The translations under genes and the position numbers were made by a program. From contig NZ_FNUC01000003.1 of NCBI RefSeq assembly GCF_900106035.1, positions 2,907,501-2,971,500 on the forward strand: a stretch of DNA of 64,000 bases, written 5' to 3'. The number at the start of each line of letters is the position of its first letter. Within the stretch, counting starts at the first letter, position 1. Under the pieces are notes generated by a model. The model saw nothing but the letters and a program-made list of their open reading frames with translations, was not told the DNA's origin and ran no database searches. Below, in pieces: positions 42,804 through 52,074 of this stretch. This DNA comes from Jiangella alba. GTDB lineage: Bacteria > Actinomycetota > Actinomycetes > Jiangellales > Jiangellaceae.

Positions 42804-44049
42804 ACCTGCCCACGTCATCGTCGGCGCCGGCCTGGTCGGCGCTCGAGCGGCCCAGGCGCTGCGCGCGCAGGGCTGCGACGAGCGGATCGTGCTGATCGGC
42901 GACGACAACGCCGGCACGTCCGCGCGGCCCGCGCTGGCCGCCGGCGCGCAGCTCGGCATGAACGGCCGGGCGGCGGTCCGGCGGCGCGACGGGCGCTGGT
43001 TCGCCGACGGCGACATCGAGGTGCTGCTCGGCCGGCGCGTGACGGCGCTGGACCGGGTCGCCCGCTCGGTGCTGCTGGACGACGGCGACCGCGTCGACTA
43101 CACGACGCTGCTGCTGGCCACCGGCGCGGCGCCGCGACGGCTCGCGGTGCCGGGCGCCGACCTCGACGGCGTGCACCACCTGCGCTGGGTCGAGGACTCC
43201 GGCCGGCTGGCGTCGGTGCTGCAGGGCGGCGGCCGGATCGTCGTGGTCGGCGGCGGGTGGGCCGGGCTGGAGACGGCGGCCGCGGCCCGCGAGCACGGCT
43301 GCGACGTCACCGTGCTCGAGTCGCGGCCGGTGCTGCTGCAGGACGAGGTGGGGCCGGAGCTGGGTGCGTTCTTCGCCGGGCTGCACCTCAGTCACAGCGT
43401 CGACCTGCGGCTGGGCCGGTCGGCGGTCGCGTTCCGCGGCGACGGCCGGGTCACGTCCGTGCGCACCGACGACGGCGCCGAGCTGCCGGCCGACGCGGTC
43501 GTCGTCGCCCTCGGCGTCTCGCCGCGGGTGGAGCTGGCCGAACGGGCCGGCCTCAGCTGCCGCGACGGCATCCTCGTCGACGAGTCGCTGCGCACCGCCG
43601 ACCCGCACGTCTACGCCGCCGGCGACGTCGCACGTCCGGCGAGTCCCTTCTATGGCGCGCCGCTGCGGATCGAGCACTGGGCGAACGCCATGCACAGCGC
43701 GCCGGTCGCGGCGGCGGCGATGCTCGGACGGGCGACGGCCTACGACCGGCTGCCGTCGCGGTTCACCGACCAGTACGGCGTCGGCGTCCAGTTCACCGGC
43801 CGTGTCTCCGGCTACGACCAGCTCGTCCTGCACGGCGACGTCGCGGGCCCGGAGTTCCAGGCGTTCTGGCTGACCGGGCGCCGGGTGGTGGCCGCCATGC
43901 AGGTCAACCTCTGGGACGACGACCTCGCCCCGGCCGAGGAGCTGATCCGCTCGCGCCGCCCCGTCGACCCCGAACGGCCGGCGGACGCGCTGCGCCACGA
44001 CCTCAGCGACCAGCCGATGTCCGCCGTCCATCAGGACACCCTGGTGTAA
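42793..44049 (+). CDS. FAD/NAD(P)-dependent ferredoxin-reductase-like oxidoreductase
   Basis: A 418-residue flavoprotein of the rubredoxin/ferredoxin reductase type. An FAD motif (VGAGLVGARAAQAL) is at the N-terminus, a second dinucleotide motif (VVGGGWAGLETAAAA) near 150, and the C-terminal FAD contact is HVYAAGDVA. The usual PPLSK-like segment after the first motif is replaced by an Ala/Arg-rich SARPALAAGAQLGMNGRAAV, so redox-partner contacts may differ. ATG 42793 has GGGGAGG five bases away. Overlap with the PhyH gene suggests it supplies electrons to, or acts after, that oxygenase. Its stop codon lies inside the first unit of a tandem-repeat array. Confidence 0.87.
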   Translation: MRSEPAHVIVGAGLVGARAAQALRAQGCDERIVLIGDDNAGTSARPALAAGAQLGMNGRAAVRRRDGRWFADGDIEVLLGRRVTALDRVARSVLLDDGDRVDYTTLLLATGAAPRRLAVPGADLDGVHHLRWVEDSGRLASVLQGGGRIVVVGGGWAGLETAAAAREHGCDVTVLESRPVLLQDEVGPELGAFFAGLHLSHSVDLRLGRSAVAFRGDGRVTSVRTDDGAELPADAVVVALGVSPRVELAERAGLSCRDGILVDESLRTADPHVYAAGDVARPASPFYGAPLRIEHWANAMHSAPVAAAAMLGRATAYDRLPSRFTDQYGVGVQFTGRVSGYDQLVLHGDVAGPEFQAFWLTGRRVVAAMQVNLWDDDLAPAEELIRSRRPVDPERPADALRHDLSDQPMSAVHQDTLV

Positions 44050-44483
44050 CTCCCGGGCGGCCAGGTGCCGCGATCCCCACCCAGCCGAGTACTGCGACCC
44101 CCGCCCGCTTGGTGTCGTGACCCCCGCCCGGCCGGCTGCTGTAACTCCCGCCCGGCCCGGTGTTGCGACCCCGCCCAGCCGAGTGCTGCGATCCCCGCCC
44201 GCTTGGTGTCGTGACCCCGCCCGCTTGGTGTCGTGACCCCGCCCGGCCCGGTGTTGCGACCCCGCCCAGCCGGGTGCTGCGACCCACACCCGGCTAGTTG
44301 TCGTGACCCCCGCCCAGCCGGCTCCTGTAACCCCGCCCAGCCGGGTGCTGTAACTCCCGCCCGGCCGGGTGCGGCCCACCGGCCCGGTGTTGCGACTCCC
44401 GCCCAGCCGGGCGTCGCGACCCCCGCCCGGCTGGCGTTTGGGCCTCCGGCCGGCGGGGTGATGTCACGCCGGCCGGCCGGCGA
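44040..44483 (+). repeat. Tandem array of about 18-19 degenerate 22-25-bp units
   Basis: Units follow the pattern TGYYGYGACCCCCGCCCRGCYGG; several carry TGTAACTCCCGCCCGG instead. The first unit contains the end of the flavoprotein gene (CTGGTGTAACTCCCG, with its TAA stop), and later units repeat TGTAACTCCCG. The array fills the whole space up to the GNAT gene's leader. Confidence 0.8.
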
Positions 44484-44526
44484 AATGCGTTGGCCCGCAG
44501 GTTTCCGGCGACGGTATGGTCCCGGC

Positions 44527-45087
44527 ATGACGCTGCTCCGGGGCGCGCTGGTCACGCTGCGCCCCGCCGCGCCCGCCGACGTCGAGCGGTTGGTGGCCAT
44601 CCGGTCGACGCCCGAGGTACACCACCGCTGGGGCGGCGACGACCTTCCCGCCGAGCTCGCCGCCGACCTCACCGACGACGACCTCCACCTGTACGTCATC
44701 GAGGTCGGCGGCCCACCCACCAGCGGCGCGGCGACCGCCAGCCCGGCACCCCGCGGCGAGGTGGTCGGCGCCGTGCAGTGGTCGGCCGAGCAGGACCCGC
44801 AGTACCGGCACGCCGGCATCGACATCTACGTCGACCCGGCGCACCACGGCCGCGGCCTCGGCACCGACGCCGTCCGTACCCTCGCCCGCCACCTGATCCG
44901 CGACCACGGCTACCACCGCCTCGTCATCGACCCGGCGGCCGACAACGCCGTGGCCATCGCCTGCTACGCGAAAGTCGGCTTCCGGCCGGTGGGCGTGATG
45001 CGCCAGTACGAGCGCGGCCCGGACGGCACCTGGCACGACGGCCTGCTCATGGACCTCCTCGCTGCCGAGTTCGTCGACCGCCCCTGA
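44527..45087 (+). CDS. GNAT-family N-acetyltransferase
   Basis: A 186-residue acetyltransferase of the RimJ/AAC(6')-like type. The acetyl-CoA motif is HHGRGLGTDAVRTLARHL, followed by NAVAIACYAKVGFRPVGVMRQYE. The ATG at 44527 follows immediately after the repeat array; longer upstream frames translate the repeats and are rejected. Acceptor unknown. Confidence 0.9.
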   Translation: MTLLRGALVTLRPAAPADVERLVAIRSTPEVHHRWGGDDLPAELAADLTDDDLHLYVIEVGGPPTSGAATASPAPRGEVVGAVQWSAEQDPQYRHAGIDIYVDPAHHGRGLGTDAVRTLARHLIRDHGYHRLVIDPAADNAVAIACYAKVGFRPVGVMRQYERGPDGTWHDGLLMDLLAAEFVDRP

Positions 45088-45096
45088 CCGGCCGCG

Positions 45097-45759
45097 TCAC
45101 ACCGTCGCGACCAGCGCGTACCGCTCGTCGTCGACGGCGCGGCCCCACAGCTCGGGCTCGCCGGTGAGGTCCTCGACCCGCAGCTCGGCGACCAGCGGGC
45201 GCACCGCGTCGACGAGGTCGGCCGCGCGCACGCCGCCGTCCCACGGCAGTGGCTCGGCACCGTCGACGTAGGCGGTCACGGGGCCGGCCGCCGCCCACCG
45301 GCCCTCGACGAGGATGAGCGTGCCGCCTGGGCGCAGCCGGCCGGTCCAGTCGCGCAGCGCCGCGGCCGGGTCGGGCAGCGTCCACACGACGTGCCGGGCC
45401 AGCACGACGTCGAAGGCCTGGTCCCCCAGCGGCGGGCGGCCAGCGTCGCCGGTCAGGAACCGGCCCGGCAGCCCGGCCGCGGCGAGCTTCGCCTCGGCCA
45501 GCCGCACCATGGCCGGTGCGAGGTCGACCCCGGTGACCCGATGCCCCAGCTCCGCCAGCAGCAGCGACAGCGACCCCGTGCCGCACCCGGCGTCGAGCGC
45601 GTCGAGCGGGTCGCCCGGCGCGGACGGCGCCCAGGACGCCAGCCGGCGCGCCCACGCCGTGCGCGTCACCGGGTCGCGCAGCCCGTGGTCGTTCTCGGCG
45701 TCGAACTCAGCGGCGGCGGTGTTCCAGAACTCCTGGATGGGTGAGGTGTCGTGCGGCAT
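45097..45759 (-). CDS. Class I SAM-dependent methyltransferase
   Basis: A 220-residue methyltransferase with motif I LDAGCGTGSLSLLLAELG, the acidic VTGVDLAPAMV and VLARHVVWTLPDP. ATG 45759, with GGGAGCC upstream, starts MPHDTSPIQEFWNTAAAEFD, the usual beginning of this family. Convergent with the GNAT gene; only 9 bp separate the stops. Confidence 0.9.
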   Translation of the reverse strand: MPHDTSPIQEFWNTAAAEFDAENDHGLRDPVTRTAWARRLASWAPSAPGDPLDALDAGCGTGSLSLLLAELGHRVTGVDLAPAMVRLAEAKLAAAGLPGRFLTGDAGRPPLGDQAFDVVLARHVVWTLPDPAAALRDWTGRLRPGGTLILVEGRWAAAGPVTAYVDGAEPLPWDGGVRAADLVDAVRPLVAELRVEDLTGEPELWGRAVDDERYALVATV

Positions 45760-45854
45760 GGGCGGCTCCCGGTTCGTGCGTCTGGTCGGCCCATCATCGC
45801 CGCCGCCACCGACAAGGTCGGCCGGTTGACACGTCGGCCACCGCAGGCCGATAC

Positions 45855-45884
45855 TCAACCAATCGGCTTATCAACCAATCGGTT
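45855..45884. promoter_or_regulatory. Tandem operator half-sites before ArsR gene
   Basis: TCAACCAATCGG occurs at 45855-45866 and 45871-45882, spaced 16 bp. The second copy extends to AACCAATCGGTT with outer AACC/GGTT symmetry. It lies 17-46 bp before the ArsR-type ATG, as expected for autoregulation. Confidence 0.6.
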
Positions 45885-45900
45885 GCGTATCGGAGGACGG

Positions 45901-46248
45901 ATGGACGACGACGGCCTGAGCCTGGTCTTCGGCGCGCTCGCCGACCCGACCCGGCGCGCCATCCTCGCCCGGCTGGCCGAAGGGCCGGCGCCCGTCACCG
46001 AGCTCGGCCGGCCGTTCGACATCAGTGCCCAGGCGGTCTCCAAGCATCTCAAGGTGCTGGAGCGGGCCGGGCTGATCAGCCGCACCCGGCAGGGCCAGTG
46101 GCGTCCCTGCCGGCTGGAGGCCGCGCCGCTGGAGCGCGCGAGCGGCTGGATCGAGCAGTACCGCGCGGTCTGGGAAGACTCCCTGGGCCGCCTCGAGCAG
46201 GAGATCGACCGGATCCGAGGGAGGCAGGACGATGCCACGCACGACTGA
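45901..46248 (+). CDS. ArsR-family regulator (SdpR/YgaV-like)
   Basis: A 115-residue winged-helix regulator: LSLVFGALADPTRRAILARLAEG, then the recognition region ISAQAVSKHLKVLERAGLI. No metal-binding cysteines, so it belongs to the common non-metal branch that is co-encoded with SRPBCC proteins. GGAGG precedes the ATG. Overlaps the next gene by 17 bp. Confidence 0.92.
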   Translation: MDDDGLSLVFGALADPTRRAILARLAEGPAPVTELGRPFDISAQAVSKHLKVLERAGLISRTRQGQWRPCRLEAAPLERASGWIEQYRAVWEDSLGRLEQEIDRIRGRQDDATHD

Positions 46249-46720
46249 GGTGCTCTTCGAGCCAGGACGGCAGGACATCGTCGTCACCAGGGGCTTCGCC
46301 GCGCCGCCCGACGCCGTCTTCGCCGCGATGACCGACCCGGCGCTGATCCCGCGCTGGTGGGGCTCGCGCCGGTTCGACACCACCGTCGAGGAGATGGACG
46401 TGCGCCGCGGCGGCAGCTGGCGGTTCGTCACCCGGCACCGCGAGGGCCCCTCGACGCCGTACACCTTCCGCGGCGTCTACCACGACGTCGTCCCCGGCTC
46501 GCTGATCGTGTCGACGCTGCAGTTCGAGATGGGCGGGCCGGGACACCTGCAGCTCGTCACCGACACCTTCGAGCCCGACGGCGACGGCGGCACCCGCTAC
46601 CTCAACGTCGCGCTGTTCCAGTCGGTGGCCGACCGCGACGGCTGGATCCCGACAGGCATGGAGACCGGCATCCGCGAGTCGCACGACCTGCTCGACCAGC
46701 TCCTCGGGGCGACGCGATGA
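46232..46720 (+). CDS. SRPBCC (AHSA1-like) protein 1
   Basis: A 162-residue START-like protein: VVTRGFAAPPDAVFAAMTDPALIPRWWG and MDVRRGGSWRFV are typical of activator-of-Hsp90-ATPase-like proteins, a hydrophobic-ligand-binding fold. Located between the ArsR gene and a second family member, overlapping both. Confidence 0.9.
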   Translation: MPRTTEVLFEPGRQDIVVTRGFAAPPDAVFAAMTDPALIPRWWGSRRFDTTVEEMDVRRGGSWRFVTRHREGPSTPYTFRGVYHDVVPGSLIVSTLQFEMGGPGHLQLVTDTFEPDGDGGTRYLNVALFQSVADRDGWIPTGMETGIRESHDLLDQLLGATR

Positions 46721-47181
46721 TGGACCTCACCGTCACCCGCCGGTACGACGCGCCGCCCGCCCGGGTGTGGGCCGCCCTGACCGAGCCGGACCTGGTGAGG
46801 CGCTGGTGGGGCCCGGACGGTTTCACCGCACCGGTCGCGCGCATGGACGTGCGCCCGGGCGGCGTCTCGCTGGTCGCCATGCGCTCCCCCGGCGGCGTCG
46901 AGCTGTACACCACCTGGACGTACGGGGTGGTCGAGCGGCCGCACCGGCTCGAGTACGTCCTGCGCTTCTCCGACGCATCCGGCCGGCCGGTCCCGCCGTC
47001 GTCGCTCGGGCTGCCCGACGGCATCCCCGAGGCCGGCGTGCCGCACGAGCTGACACTGGAGACGTCGGACGGCGGGACGGAGCTCACCGTCACCGAGCGC
47101 GGCTACGCGGACGCCGGCGTCGTGGCCGGGTCACGGCTCGGGCTGGAGCAGACGCTGGCCAAGCTCGCCGCCGTGCTGTGA
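46717..47181 (+). CDS. SRPBCC (AHSA1-like) protein 2
   Basis: A 154-residue relative of the preceding protein (TRRYDAPPARVWAALTEPDLVRRWWG, MDVRPGGVS). ATG 46717 overlaps the preceding stop by 4 bp; an ATG one codon later is equally possible. The ArsR-SRPBCC-SRPBCC arrangement is common in actinobacteria; ligands are mostly unknown. Confidence 0.9.
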   Translation: MMDLTVTRRYDAPPARVWAALTEPDLVRRWWGPDGFTAPVARMDVRPGGVSLVAMRSPGGVELYTTWTYGVVERPHRLEYVLRFSDASGRPVPPSSLGLPDGIPEAGVPHELTLETSDGGTELTVTERGYADAGVVAGSRLGLEQTLAKLAAVL

Positions 47182-47186
47182 GCGGC

Positions 47187-47287
47187 GGGCTCTGCGCCGC
47201 AGCCGGCGCTGTCCGGGCCCGGTGAGGCGTCCGGGCTCTGCGGAGAGTCAGGCCCTGCGCCGCAGCCGGCGCCGGCGCCGTCCGGGC
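47187..47287. repeat. Partial duplication spanning a convergent gene junction
   Basis: A roughly 30-bp block, GGGCTCTGCGCCGCAGCCGG plus CGCTGTCCGGGC (47187-47218), recurs as the end of the DUF1707 gene (47249-47287), with a fragment CGTCCGGGCTCTGCGG in between. The second copy encodes that protein's Arg-rich tail and stop codon, as in the larger arrays nearby. Confidence 0.6.
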
Positions 47288-47871
47288 GCGACTGCGGTGA
47301 CCCGGCTCCACTGCAGCCGGCCGGTCACCCGGACGACAGCGCGGGCCGGGATATCGTTCCGGGCCGGTTCGAAACGCAGCTTCGAGCCGTGCTCATCCAG
47401 GTCGGTGGCCTCGACCCGGACGTCGTCCGGGACGATCAGCCGGAGCCGGCTGTGCGTGAGGTCGGCGTCGATCAGCAGCTGCGGCCCGGGCAGGACCACC
47501 TCGGTCAGGTCGAGCACCAGCGACGAGTGCACCAGCGTGACGACGAGGTGCGTCGGCACATCCCACCGACCGGAGCGCTGCATGCGGGCGTGCGTCCCGG
47601 TGATCGTGACGGGCTCACCGGCAGGCCTCGTCGCAGAAACGGGCTCGGCCGCGGCCAGGACGGCGTCGGCGCCGGGCAGGTGCACCAGCGCCGCCTCGAG
47701 ATCGCCACGGGTGCGTGCCCCCAGGACCGCGCCGAGCCGCTCGTCGATCTCCTCGAGCCCGATGCGACCGTCGCCGAGGGCCGTGCGGACGAACTCGGCG
47801 GCCCGCTCCCGGTCGGCGTCGGACACCCGTTCCAGCGCCCGCTCCTCGCGCCGTGCCACGTCGTCGCCCAT
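47248..47871 (-). CDS. DUF1707 domain protein with LiaF-like C-terminal domain
   Basis: A 207-residue protein. The N-terminal DUF1707 helix pair reads VSDADRERAAEFVRTALGDGRIGLEEIDERL (about 16-46); the rest is beta-rich and resembles the cell-wall-stress LiaF/DUF2154 domain. No membrane segment. It ends in an unusually basic tail (about nine Arg in the last eleven residues) that is the duplicated repeat sequence. Confidence 0.82.
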   Translation of the reverse strand: MGDDVARREERALERVSDADRERAAEFVRTALGDGRIGLEEIDERLGAVLGARTRGDLEAALVHLPGADAVLAAAEPVSATRPAGEPVTITGTHARMQRSGRWDVPTHLVVTLVHSSLVLDLTEVVLPGPQLLIDADLTHSRLRLIVPDDVRVEATDLDEHGSKLRFEPARNDIPARAVVRVTGRLQWSRVTAVAPGRRRRRLRRRA

Positions 47872-47915
47872 GACGCAGAACTCTACGCAGGCGGCCGCGC
47901 GCGGACCTCCGCGGC

Positions 47916-48201
47916 TCAGACGGGGAGCCGTGCCCCAGCCGGCGCCTCGGACGCCTCCCCAGTCAGACCGGGAGCCGTGCCCCAGCCGGCGCCTCGGACG
48001 CCTCCCCAGTCAGACCGGGAGCCGTGCCCCCGCCGGCGCCTCGGACACGTCCCACAGTCAGACCGGGAGCCGTGCCCCCGCCGGCGCCTCGGACACGTCC
48101 CACAGTCAGACCGGGAACCGCGCCCCCACCAGCCACTCGGACACGTCCCTCAGTCAGACCGGGAACCGCGCCCCCACCAGCGCCTCGGACACGTCCCACA
48201 G
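47916..48201 (-). repeat. Six tandem copies of the 3' end of the SDR gene (47-48 bp)
   Basis: Units begin at 47916, 47963, 48010, 48058, 48106 and 48154. The last is the true end of the SDR gene (codons [14 protein letters not shown] and TGA, plus 3 bp on the plus-strand right side). Units at 48010 and 48058 are identical; 47916 and 47963 differ by one base. Every unit keeps the TGA stop. Confidence 0.88.
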
Positions 48202-49089
48202 TCGGCGGGCGTCGTCGGGGTCGCGCAGCGGCGCCCACAGGTCCTGCCGGGCGGGCGCGCCGCCGAGGCCACCGCGTCGCCGCGGACCGTAGAACTCGCT
48301 CCCCCGCGCGCCGGGACCGGTCGCGGCCAGCAGCGCCGGCAGCGCCGCGCTCTCGACGGTGCCGGTGAGGCCGAGCCGCGACAGCACCCGGATCAGCCGG
48401 ACCGAGCTGGTGTCGCGCCGTCGCCCCATGCCGGGCTGCGCGGCGAGCAGGTTCGTCGGCGAGACCCCGGGATGGGCCAGGTTGCTGCTGATGCCCCAGC
48501 CCGCGGCCGCGCTGCGCCGGTCGAGCTCGTGCGCGAACAGGCCGACGGCGATCTTCGACTGAGCGTAGGCCTTGCGCGCGTCGTAGCCGCGTTCCCAGTC
48601 GAGGTCGTCCCAGTTGATCGCGCCGCTGCGCGCGGCGACGCTGGTCTGGTGCGTGACGCGGGCCCGACCCTGCCGCAGCAACGGCAGCAACCCCAGAGTC
48701 AGCGCGAAGTGCCCGACGTGGTTGGTGCCGAACTGCAGCTCGAACCCGTCCGCCGTCACCTGCCGGCTGGGCGGCGTCATGACACCGGCATTGTTGATCA
48801 ACAGGTTGATTGGGCGGCCCTCCTCGACGAGACGGTCAACTATGGACGTCACCGAATCCAGTGATGACAGGTCGAGGGCCCGGGTGCTGACCTTCACGCC
48901 CGGCACCCGGTCGCGAATGCGTCCGGCGGCCCGCTCCCCCTTCGCCGCGTCGCGCACCGGCATGATCACCTCCGCGCCTGCGCCGGCGAGCCGCGTCGCG
49001 ATGACCAGGCCGATGCCGTCGCTCGCGCCGGTGACGACGGCGAGCCGGCCGGACTGGTCGGGGATCGCGAGGTCGATCGTGCGCGCCAT
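48154..49089 (-). CDS. Short-chain dehydrogenase/reductase (SDR)
   Basis: A 311-residue SDR of the retinol-dehydrogenase/protochlorophyllide-reductase-like branch. Cofactor motif [17 protein letters not shown], the Ser-containing [11 protein letters not shown] and the catalytic YAQSK. ATG 49089 with AAGGAG eight bases upstream; a frame from 49149 exists but lacks a ribosome site. Divergent from an XRE/MmyB regulator, a frequent pairing in actinobacteria. Its final 16 codons are the repeat unit of the array at 47916-48201. Confidence 0.92.
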
Positions 49090-49145
49090 GAGCAGTTCTC
49101 CTTCGTCGGTGTCCTCCTCATGCTGCGAGCCCGGCACGATCTGAG

Positions 49146-49166
49146 CCACGGCCTGACGATCCGTGG
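49146..49166. promoter_or_regulatory. Inverted repeat between SDR and XRE genes
   Basis: CCACGG (49146-49151) and CCGTGG (49161-49166) with a 9-bp spacer, in the 110-bp divergent intergenic region. Possible operator for the XRE regulator. Confidence 0.45.
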
Positions 49167-49199
49167 TTACGGCGCCGCGCAGGCGGTAGAAAAGGTCGC

Positions 49200-50087
49200 A
49201 TGCTGATCGACCGCGCCGGGCTGGCGGCGTTCCTCCGCAGCCGCCGCGAGGCGCTGCAGCCCGAGGACGTCGGTCTCCCGCGGGGACGGCGCCGCCGGAC
49301 CAGCGGACTGAGGCGCGAGGAGGTGGCCGCGCTCTGCCATCTGTCGGCCGACTACTACGCCCGGCTCGAACGGGAGCGCGGCCCGCATCCGTCCGAGCAG
49401 CTGATCGCGTCCATCGCGCAGGGCCTGCACCTGTCGCTCGACGAGCGCGACCACCTGTTCCGGCTCGCTGGGCACCACCCGCCGGTACGCGGGCCGGCCA
49501 GCGAGCACATCAGCCCCGGCCTGCTGCGCACCCTCGACCGCCTCGCCGACACCCCCGCGGAGATCATCACCGAGCTGGCCGAGACCCTGCGCCAGACGCC
49601 GCTCGGGGTCGCGCTCACCGGCGACGCCACCCGGTACACCGGGCCGGCCCGCAGCTTCGGCTACCGCTGGTTCACCGACCCCGCCGCCCGCGACCGGTAC
49701 GCACCCGGCGACCACGAGCAGCTCTCCCGGGCGTTCGCCTCCGGCCTGCGCGGCGTCGTCACGCTGCGCGGCCCCGAGTCGAGAGCGGCGCGCATCGCCG
49801 AGCGGCTGCTCGCACGCAGCGACGAGTTCCGGAGGCTCTGGGACGAGCACGAGATCGGCGTGCGCCCCAGCGAGGTCAAGCGCTTCGTGCACCCCGAGGT
49901 CGGCCTGCTGGAGCTCACCTGCCAGACGCTGCTCGACCCGGACCAGTCGCACCGTCTGCTCGTCTACACCGCCGTTCCGGGCAGCGAGAGCTACGACAAG
50001 TTACGGCTGCTCGCGGTCGTCGGCGCCCAGACGCTGGCCGCTCAGGGCGACACCCTGACGCTGCCCGCTCACGACGACGCGCCGTAA
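49200..50087 (+). CDS. XRE-family regulator with MmyB-like ligand domain
   Basis: A 295-residue regulator: XRE helix-turn-helix at about 10-75 ([31 protein letters not shown]) and the MmyB-like PAS-type domain (about 105-275). Members usually repress a divergent SDR and respond to fatty-acid-like ligands. Its 3' end (codons for [15 protein letters not shown] and the last residues before the stop) is repeated downstream. Confidence 0.9.
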
Positions 50088-50425
50088 CGGGCGGAGAGAG
50101 CACCACAAGCTACGGCTGCACGCCGTCGTCGGCGTCCAGACGCTGCCCGCATGATGGCGTGCCGTAGCGGGCGGAGAGAGCACCACAAGCAACGGCAGCT
50201 CGCCGCCGTCGGCACCCGGACACTGCCCGCTCACAACACGCGCCGTAGCGGGCGACGAGAGCACCCCCGAGCTACTGCTGGTCGCCGCCGTCGGCACCCA
50301 GACACGGCCCGCTCACAACGACGCGCCGTAACGGGCGACGAGAACACCACAAGCCACGGCTGCTCAAGGTCGTCGGCACCCAGACGCTGCCCACTCAGGG
50401 TGGCGTGTCGTAGCGGGCGGCGAGC
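49996..50425. repeat. Five-copy tandem array joining two convergent gene ends
   Basis: Units start at about 49996, 50105, 50185, 50265 and 50349, so the period is 80-84 bp apart from the first. Each unit holds a version of ACAAGYTACGGCTGC plus CGTCGGCRCCCAGAC (from the XRE gene end) and then CGCCGTARCGGGCGRCGAG (matching the end of the WYL gene, codons LAARYDTP). The first unit is the XRE gene end; the last runs into the WYL gene end. Confidence 0.8.
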
Positions 50426-51423
50426 GCGAGGGCGCGGTCGCGCAACGCGGTGCGCAGCGACGGCGGCGCCAGCGCCTCGGCGTCCGTCGCGAGCTGCCAC
50501 AGCGCCCACTCGGCGTGCCGGGCGTCCTGGAACGTCACCGTCATCCGCAGCCAGCCGCCCGCGCCATCCGCTCCATCCGCGCCATCCGCGCCGCCCGCAC
50601 CGCCCACGCCATCCGCCTCGGCCGCCTCGGCCAGGACAGCCAGTGCGGTGCCGGCCAGCTCTTCCCGCCGCGACGGCCGCAGTCGCAGCTCGACGGCGAC
50701 CTGGTCGCCGCCGGCGCGGAAGCGGGTGCTGCGGTCGCGCCAGATCCGGTCGAGGTCGACGTGGTCAGGACGCTCCGCCGGTTCGGGCAGCTCCTCGGCC
50801 GCCAGCACCCGCGACAGCCGGTAGGTGCGGTCCTCGCCCGATCTCGTGGCCAGCAGATACCCGCGGTCGCGGACGGTGACCAGCCCGATCGGGTCGACCG
50901 TCCGCCACGCCGGCGGCCGGCCCGCCGCCGCGTAGTGTAGGCGCAGCTTGTGCCCGGCGAACACCGCGCGCCGGACCTCGGCCGCGACGTCGCCGGGCAC
51001 CTCGTCGACGGCCGCCCGGCGGGCCAGCAGGTCCGTCTCGGGCTCGATCAGCATCCGCCGGGCCGCGTCGCTCGCCGTCGCCTGGGACCCCTCCGGCAGC
51101 GCGTCGACCACCTTGCGCATGGCCGACGCCAGCGCCGAACCGAGCCCGAACACCTGCTCGCCCCGCCCCAGCCCGGCGACCAGCAACGACAGCGCCTCGT
51201 CGTGGTTGAGCCCGGTGAGCTCGGTCCGGAACCCCGGCAGCAGCGCGAAGCCACCGTGCCGGCCGCGTTCGGCGTACACCGGCACCCCGGCCGCCGACAG
51301 CGCCTCGATGTCGCGCAGGACGGTGCGCGTGGACACCTCCAGCTCGTGGGCCAACGTGGCCGCGGACAGCCGTCCGCGCTGGCGCAGCAGCAGCACCAGC
51401 GACACCAACCGGTCGGCGCGCAC
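50395..51423 (-). CDS. WYL-domain regulator (YafY/PafBC-like)
   Basis: A 342-residue regulator: DeoR-type winged helix (1-60, with LSAATLAHELEVSTRTVLRDIEALSAAGVPV), then a WYL domain with the RLHYAAAGRPPAWRTVDPIGLV segment, and a C-terminal WCX-like region. Near residue 280 sits a low-complexity insertion of Gly-Ala-Asp repeats (GGAGGADGADGADGAGG), coded by a short tandem DNA repeat at about 50560-50625. GTG start at 51423. Its 3' end is part of the repeat array. Confidence 0.88.
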   Translation of the reverse strand: MRADRLVSLVLLLRQRGRLSAATLAHELEVSTRTVLRDIEALSAAGVPVYAERGRHGGFALLPGFRTELTGLNHDEALSLLVAGLGRGEQVFGLGSALASAMRKVVDALPEGSQATASDAARRMLIEPETDLLARRAAVDEVPGDVAAEVRRAVFAGHKLRLHYAAAGRPPAWRTVDPIGLVTVRDRGYLLATRSGEDRTYRLSRVLAAEELPEPAERPDHVDLDRIWRDRSTRFRAGGDQVAVELRLRPSRREELAGTALAVLAEAAEADGVGGAGGADGADGADGAGGWLRMTVTFQDARHAEWALWQLATDAEALAPPSLRTALRDRALALAARYDTPP

Positions 51424-51510
51424 AGGGACGTTCTACCAAATCACGACACCGACTGTCGTGGTTCGGCGCCTGGTCGGCAGAATGGGAGCTCTCGTCCCCC
51501 TGGAGTCGCG

Positions 51511-51900
51511 ATGACGCACCTGCCGGTCGCCCTCGGCGCCACCTGCGACCTCCACCAGACCTCGGACGACGGCCGCACCGTGAGCTTCTCCGTGAGCGAG
51601 TTCGTCGAGCTCGAGGGCGCGCGGCGGGTCGTTCTCCGCGGCGACCTCGGGTTCACGGCCGGCTGGAACTCGCCGGCCCCGATCTGGACGTCGTACACGG
51701 AGGAATCCCTCACGCAGGACGTCCTGAACGTCGTGCTCCCCGACGAGGACGGCACCGGCGAGGACCACCCCTGGGACTGGCTCGCCGAGCTGGCCCGCGG
51801 CCGCGGCGTCGTGGTCACCGCCGACCAGCTGCGGCGCCTGCCGTACGAGGTCGAGCTCACCGATCGCGTCCGGCGCCTGATCTCGACCGGCCGGACCTAG
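51511..51900 (+). CDS. Hypothetical protein, 129 aa
   Basis: A small, acidic, soluble protein (MTHLPVALGATCDLHQTSDD at the start; later EDHPWDWLAELARGRGVVV). ATG at 51511 with TGGAG seven bases upstream. Divergent from the WYL regulator by 87 bp. I do not recognise a family; the balanced composition and consistent third-position GC support coding. Confidence 0.7.
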   Translation: MTHLPVALGATCDLHQTSDDGRTVSFSVSEFVELEGARRVVLRGDLGFTAGWNSPAPIWTSYTEESLTQDVLNVVLPDEDGTGEDHPWDWLAELARGRGVVVTADQLRRLPYEVELTDRVRRLISTGRT

Positions 51901-51926
51901 CCGCGCCCGGGGACGAACTCGCGCGT

Positions 51927-51962
51927 GGTGGGGCCGGCCAGAGTGCTCCGGCCGGCCCCACC
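51927..51962. terminator. Terminator hairpin between hypothetical gene and pyc
   Basis: A perfect 13-bp stem, GGTGGGGCCGGCC (51927-51939) with GGCCGGCCCCACC (51950-51962), and a 10-nt loop. Serves both convergent genes. Confidence 0.7.
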
Positions 51963-52074
51963 CGGCGATACCCGATACGGCGCCGGCCAAACCGCGCGCC
52001 GCGACATCAGGCGTCGCGCGGGAGGTCGCCGCGGGCCGTCGCCGCGCGACGGTCGACGGCGCCGCGCGCCGGGC

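Follow-up and report, generated by a model that had tools for sequence, protein, structure and literature searches.

A tandem array of six units that lies between a short-chain dehydrogenase (SDR) gene and a DUF1707 gene in Jiangella alba is very probably a young minisatellite of the VNTR type, most likely neutral, which arose when the 48 bp that end the SDR gene were duplicated in tandem. The array is located in a stretch of 64,000 nucleotides, hereafter called the window, where it occupies 47916..48201 on the minus strand as head-to-tail units of 48, 48, 48, 48, 47, and 47 bp. This reading draws on the anatomy of the array, an empty site in two collinear relatives, drift of the units without signs of coding constraint, the lack of any special RNA structure, the presence of other gene-tail copies in the same genome, and the absence of gene-head copies from the part of it that was sampled. 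The features concerned are as follows.

48154..49092, minus strand: SDR gene (short-chain dehydrogenase; PF00106, E 7.6e-26), whose last 48 bp are unit 1
48154-48201, minus strand: unit 1, 48 bp, coding, CTG...TGA, the TGA being the SDR gene's own stop
48106-48153, minus strand: unit 2, 48 bp, 3 differences from unit 1
48058-48105, minus strand: unit 3, 48 bp, 4 differences from unit 1
48010-48057, minus strand: unit 4, 48 bp, exactly equal to unit 3, 4 differences from unit 1
47963-48009, minus strand: unit 5, 47 bp, 8 differences from unit 1, frame shifted relative to units 1-4
47916-47962, minus strand: unit 6, 47 bp, 9 differences from unit 1, its TGA abutting native downstream sequence
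47872..47915, minus strand: native spacer between the SDR and DUF1707 genes, with a promoter-like TAGAGT just ahead of the ATG; it lies outside the array and, by alignment, is conserved in the relatives G010 and G009
47248-47871, minus strand: DUF1707 gene (PF08044, E 1.4e-16), downstream of the SDR gene and on the same strand

The array is real and far above chance. TRF reports it at 47916-48203 with a period of 48, 6.0 copies, 93% matches, and a score of 436, in agreement with the definition of a minisatellite as a head-to-tail series of highly similar units, each about 10-100 bp long. The SDR gene tail aligns with the sequence downstream at a score of 81, and no mispaired tail reached 40 in eight genomes. 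When the intergenic DNA of each sampled genome was resampled once under a Markov model, 0 arrays passed the TRF threshold of 80. An earlier note on this DNA had described six units of 47-48 bp with the coding end of the SDR gene at 48154-48201, and both its coordinates and its similarities hold. Its proposal that the array is built from a gene end together with the stop is likewise borne out. CTG opens and TGA closes all six units. Adjacent units are most alike, as had also been remarked: units 3 and 4 are the same, units 5 and 6 are a single base apart, and the mutual closest pairs are 1-2, 3-4, and 5-6. The distance to coding unit 1 grows along the array, with 0, 3, 4, 4, 8, and 9 differences for units 1-6.

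A near-intact peptide had been reported for every unit, and this is accurate for only part of the array. Units 2-4 carry the peptide in frame with the SDR gene, with 2-3 changes per unit, whereas units 5 and 6 keep only its last 11 residues and are shifted in frame. Unit 5 reads LGRR... in the frame of the preceding units, and both 47-bp units are changed near their start. When unit 5 is read back from the TGA that closes it, it gives SEAPAGARLPV (ORF 47963-48238), and unit 6 does likewise by eye. The last 11 residues are retained in all six units, and the start of the peptide is found only in units 1-4. Among the substitutions that separate units 2-4 from unit 1, 6 of the 7 distinct ones affect codon position 1 or 2, where about 4.7 would be expected without constraint; judged on these few (7) changes, nothing suggests that the peptide is preserved. 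All units share the opening CTG, the closing TGA, and the final 11 codons, as recent copies would, and constraint on these features is possible.

The empty site can be seen in two other Jiangella genomes, G010 and G009, whose SDR orthologues are 91% and 89% identical to the gene in the window. Both have kept the SDR-DUF1707 gene order and have a single copy of the tail. In alignments, their stop codon directly abuts the sequence that stands after unit 6 in the window, which means that this lineage acquired five units at the stop codon. The lineages differ in copy number, with 1 in G010 and G009 versus 6 here, a comparison between species only, with one genome per species. Across the genus, a tail copy was found in 0 of 9 SDR orthologues (scores 15-24 versus 81 in the window); this test took in the 9 of 11 relatives with an SDR gene at least 62% identical and left out G005 and G006 (46-47% matches). 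Seven of these nine orthologues are weaker evidence. Gene order was mapped in six relatives and is kept in G009 and G010; G002, G003, G004, and G007 have other downstream neighbors, and the remaining three of the seven are G001, G008, and G011. Judged from these alignments, the array is young on the scale of the genus, and the recent expansion suspected in the earlier note is supported by the single copy in the two collinear relatives.

The array would have begun with a tandem duplication of the terminal 48 bp of the gene, with breakpoints before the CTG and right after the TGA. Only a 2-base match, GA, is present at the duplication junction (CCGA before unit 1 and TCTGA at the unit end). Because the copied block includes the stop, the extra copies fall 3' of the first stop and the protein is unchanged. 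The duplication would also have left intact the conserved stretch beyond the last unit that we take to be promoter-like for the DUF1707 gene. The array ends 44 bp from the DUF1707 start, and alignment reveals an invariant CTGCGTAGAGTTC shortly 5' of the DUF1707 ATG in the window, G010, and G009; a scan of 47200-49300 found no sigma-70-type site, and the stretch with TAGAGT is a putative promoter. With the stop copied along, neither the protein nor this stretch would be touched, which would explain how such a duplication could survive. Subsequently, the array would have grown by single-unit steps while the noncoding units drifted. The molecular step was probably replication slippage or unequal crossing over, and the slippage- or duplication-driven growth that had been suggested for the array fits the data. 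We infer that the array is neutral.

Functional roles for the array were also weighed. Formation of the 3' end had been proposed. In such a role, the transcript of the six units would form a long stem that ends or protects the SDR mRNA. The array RNA is predicted to fold at -179 kcal/mol (z -3.55), and 0 of 200 dinucleotide shuffles were as stable. However, this apparent special structure is significant only against such plain shuffles and is gone in a tandem-aware control made of arrays of shuffled units. A perfect consensus repeated six times folds at -174.3 kcal/mol, compared with a mean of -174.4 (sd 17.1) for shuffled units repeated six times, 46 of 100 of which were at least as stable. 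Similarly, six copies of unit 1 have a z of -0.73, and 20 of 100 shuffled-unit arrays were at least as stable. Special RNA structure was rejected on these grounds, and the predicted stem is ordinary for a GC-rich array. Furthermore, 47200-49300 contains 0 terminator-like sites (hairpin plus T run), 43000-52000 has no Rfam match, and the two collinear orthologues dispense with the array, which is also absent from all nine orthologues tested in the genus. A 3'-end or RNA-stability element is therefore very unlikely. The idea that the array serves as a set of regulator sites ahead of the DUF1707 gene agrees with its six near-equal units on the same strand, 44 bp upstream of the DUF1707 start. This suggestion of the earlier note nevertheless appears highly improbable. 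G010 and G009 have just one unit, itself SDR coding sequence, none of the nine tested genus orthologues has the array, and the conserved promoter-like stretch lies wholly outside it. In addition, no other close copy of the array was seen among the 40 of 296 candidate matches in the genome that were scored, the next matches there covering 34-42 bp at 83-89% identity with E values of 2e-4 or weaker.

Two further explanations concern the protein and the assembly. TGA before C is a leaky stop context. Units 1-4 are 48 bp long and in frame, each of their TGA codons precedes C, and the peptide is recognizable in units 2-4, such that readthrough might append tail-peptide repeats to the SDR protein and make the array a reservoir of C-terminal extensions. 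Yet an in-frame TGA closes every one of units 1-4, units 5 and 6 are in another frame, and 6 of the 7 substitutions in units 2-4 are at codon positions 1 and 2, leaving this scenario scarcely credible. Tandem repeats are sometimes assembled wrongly. The chance of an artefact is nonetheless exceedingly slight, given a genome of 7.68 Mb in 4 contigs that was scored as 100% complete, identity between units that is limited to units 3 and 4, and comparable arrays elsewhere in the same genome.

The array is not the only one of its kind in this genome. The genome that contains the window (G000) was sampled as the window plus 54 further 20-kb stretches, or 1.144 Mb, with genes called by a codon-usage script. 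At gaps of at least 60 bp, the last 60 bp of a gene was sought downstream and the first 60 bp upstream, with a score of at least 40 required. Tail copies, for which the earlier note had suggested a search, were present at 6 of 360 gene ends, and none of the 510 gene starts had a head copy (Fisher p 0.005). With the window excluded, the counts are 4 of 341 ends and 0 of 483 starts (p 0.03); the last 14 stretches to be added contributed 1 of 95 ends and 0 of 117 starts. The earlier note had counted relatives with a single copy, together with no other such arrays in the genome, as evidence against its reading. The relatives are indeed single-copy, but other such arrays are present in the genome.

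Tail copies are scarce in the other samples, with 0 of 115 ends in G010, 0 of 76 in G003, 0 of 57 in G008, 1 of 54 in G001, 0 of 56 in G024, 0 of 91 in G039, 1 of 62 in G033, and 0 of 235 in 80 actinobacterial loci. Head copies at gene starts numbered 0 in each sampled genome and in the 80 loci. When pooled, tail copies occur at 8 of 1106 ends and head copies at 0 of 1626 starts (p 0.0007), or 6 of 1087 and 0 of 1599 without the window (p 0.004). Two of the eight pooled tail matches are weak as arrays, as the G001 copy begins 783 bp past the gene, in the distal part of an 843-bp spacer, and the G033 copy is 24 bp long. Mispaired controls predict 0.00 matches at a score of 40 in each of the eight genomes that they covered, later-added stretches and the 80 loci excluded. 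TRF arrays that cross a gene boundary tell the same story, summing to 11 at 3' ends and 1 at a 5' end (binomial p 0.006), or 8 to 1 without the window (p 0.04). All of these p values are rough, because starts are placed less surely than stops, one array between convergent genes is counted for two gene ends, and the samples include related genomes that lack independence. The arrays crossing 3' ends include 7 in G000 at 8 ends (1017 genes), two of them in the ascertained window, and 3 in the 80 actinobacterial loci (566 genes), with none in four other Jiangella samples (880 genes) and 0 in three single genomes of other families (534 genes).

A high density of arrays peculiar to this species was considered and ruled out, because other genomes reach a similar density. 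Gaps shorter than 60 bp and arrays with a TRF period below 12 or a score below 80 were dropped, and overlapping TRF rows were merged. On this basis, intergenic arrays per 100 kb number 3.36 in G000 (864 kb with the window counted in), 3.25 in G010, 1.0 in G003, 1.5 in G008, and 0.5 in G001 among the Jiangella genomes, and 2.5 in G024, 3.5 in G039, and 2.5 in G033 from other families.

The 3' bias is best read as a filter of selection, reflecting what selection tolerates. A duplication on the start side would be likely to change the leader or the protein, and a tail copy that carries the stop is silent. Alternatively, gene 3' ends could be a specific birthplace of tandem duplications in this species, with a gene-end process that copies tails along with their stops. 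We regard this as unlikely. Such a process might act, for example, at convergent junctions or at a dispersed palindrome, and would produce one-sided arrays at about 1-2% of the gene ends that border spacers. The proposal draws on few cases, two of the six being in the ascertained window, and is accordingly held with little confidence. If true, gene ends would be a specific source of such arrays, beyond being a tolerated place. Tolerance by selection remains our preferred account of the bias. A point against reading the six-unit array as a neutral minisatellite is that two more arrays are situated close by, and this 6-kb stretch may be unusual for some other reason.

50051..50424, no strand assigned: second gene-end array, an 82-bp unit in 4.6 copies, spanning the 3' ends of convergent HTH (MLTR_LBD) and WYL genes
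44058..44480, no strand assigned: third array, 24 bp x 17, degenerate, beginning 8 bp past the TAA of a reductase gene

The HTH/WYL junction is also expanded in G010, there with other units of 61-64 and 21 bp (L156 13080-13526), and no array was found at this junction in G009. The HTH gene of G009 was missed by the script and by eye ends with TAG against the WYL gene, with a shorter tail. This junction appears to be repeat-prone: two species carry different arrays there, a third has none, and the repeats may also vary the protein end. In the third array, the stop context TGTAAC is repeated at three places; the corresponding site in G010 is an 81-bp spacer. Elsewhere in G000, L037 18209-18993 holds a 142-bp unit x 5.5 (97% identity) in the spacer between convergent genes, the top score among the mostly noncoding arrays listed. 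A 77-bp unit x 5.5 (90%) at L065 3544-3970 nearly fills a co-directional gap, 1 bp after one gene and 10 bp before the next.

The dispersed palindrome of G000 has the form CTTTGCAATGAGCACC...GGTGCTCATTGCAAAG and spans about 50-70 bp in simple copies.

L051 12200-12261; L053 19404-19455; L061 6762-6980; L065 15743-15962; L162 12482-12908: palindrome copies in G000

Judged by eye, its inner stem seems to undergo compensating changes between copies. Exact matches to the half-site number 110 in G000, 53 in G008, and 37 in G010; every one of nine further Jiangella genomes has 0-3, and a control with the reversed pattern gave 0. When one mismatch is allowed, all 17 half-sites in the sampled 1.144 Mb of G000 lie in intergenic DNA, convergent genes flank 11 of them, and the palindrome is inside 3 of the 6 gene-tail arrays of G000 (L061, L065, and L162). 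A RAYT-type or Y1 transposase (PF01797) was rejected as its source, with 0 of 5 Jiangella genomes giving a match and a control search positive in 5 of 14.

The array in the window offers a clean example, young on the genus scale, of spacer DNA that grows out of coding DNA. A duplication that ends just past the stop is silent for the protein and in this case leaves the next promoter-like stretch intact, and so it can both survive and expand. The 3' bias gives a straightforward gauge of the places at which tandem duplication is tolerated by selection, and empty sites make the timing of duplication testable within one genus.

Several known repeat systems bear comparison with this array. Mycobacterial interspersed repetitive units (MIRUs) are tens of base pairs long, are found between neighboring genes, and overlap stop and start codons; they form one dispersed family at many loci. 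The Jiangella array is similarly composed of actinobacterial tandem units of tens of base pairs between neighboring genes, but its unit was made from its own local gene rather than from a dispersed family. MIRU-like dispersal was not seen, as the 40 of 296 candidates that were scored include, beyond the array, four matches (34-42 bp, 83-89%) and no other full copy. Like bacterial minisatellites in general, the array is arranged head to tail, its neighboring units are most alike, and it is confined to one lineage and largely outside coding sequence; it differs in having a coding first unit that contains the stop codon.

The earlier note knew of no named repeat family with such a form. This statement needs qualification in view of the VNTRs of Yersinia pestis, which overlap a stop codon at 10 of 88 loci and start codons at six (PMC3689786). 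Among the open-licence papers listed in literature searches, there were no further reports of arrays that contain stop codons. For the stop-overlapping loci, the authors expect copy number to affect coding less (PMC3689786). As in Y. pestis (PMC3689786), the repeat unit here holds the stop of the gene at its 3' end, and the first stop is unaltered. In the Jiangella array, by contrast, the entire 48-bp unit comes from coding sequence, and variation was compared between species only. Stop-overlapping repeats had therefore already been described and the system itself is not new; in the Jiangella array, the empty site is visible.
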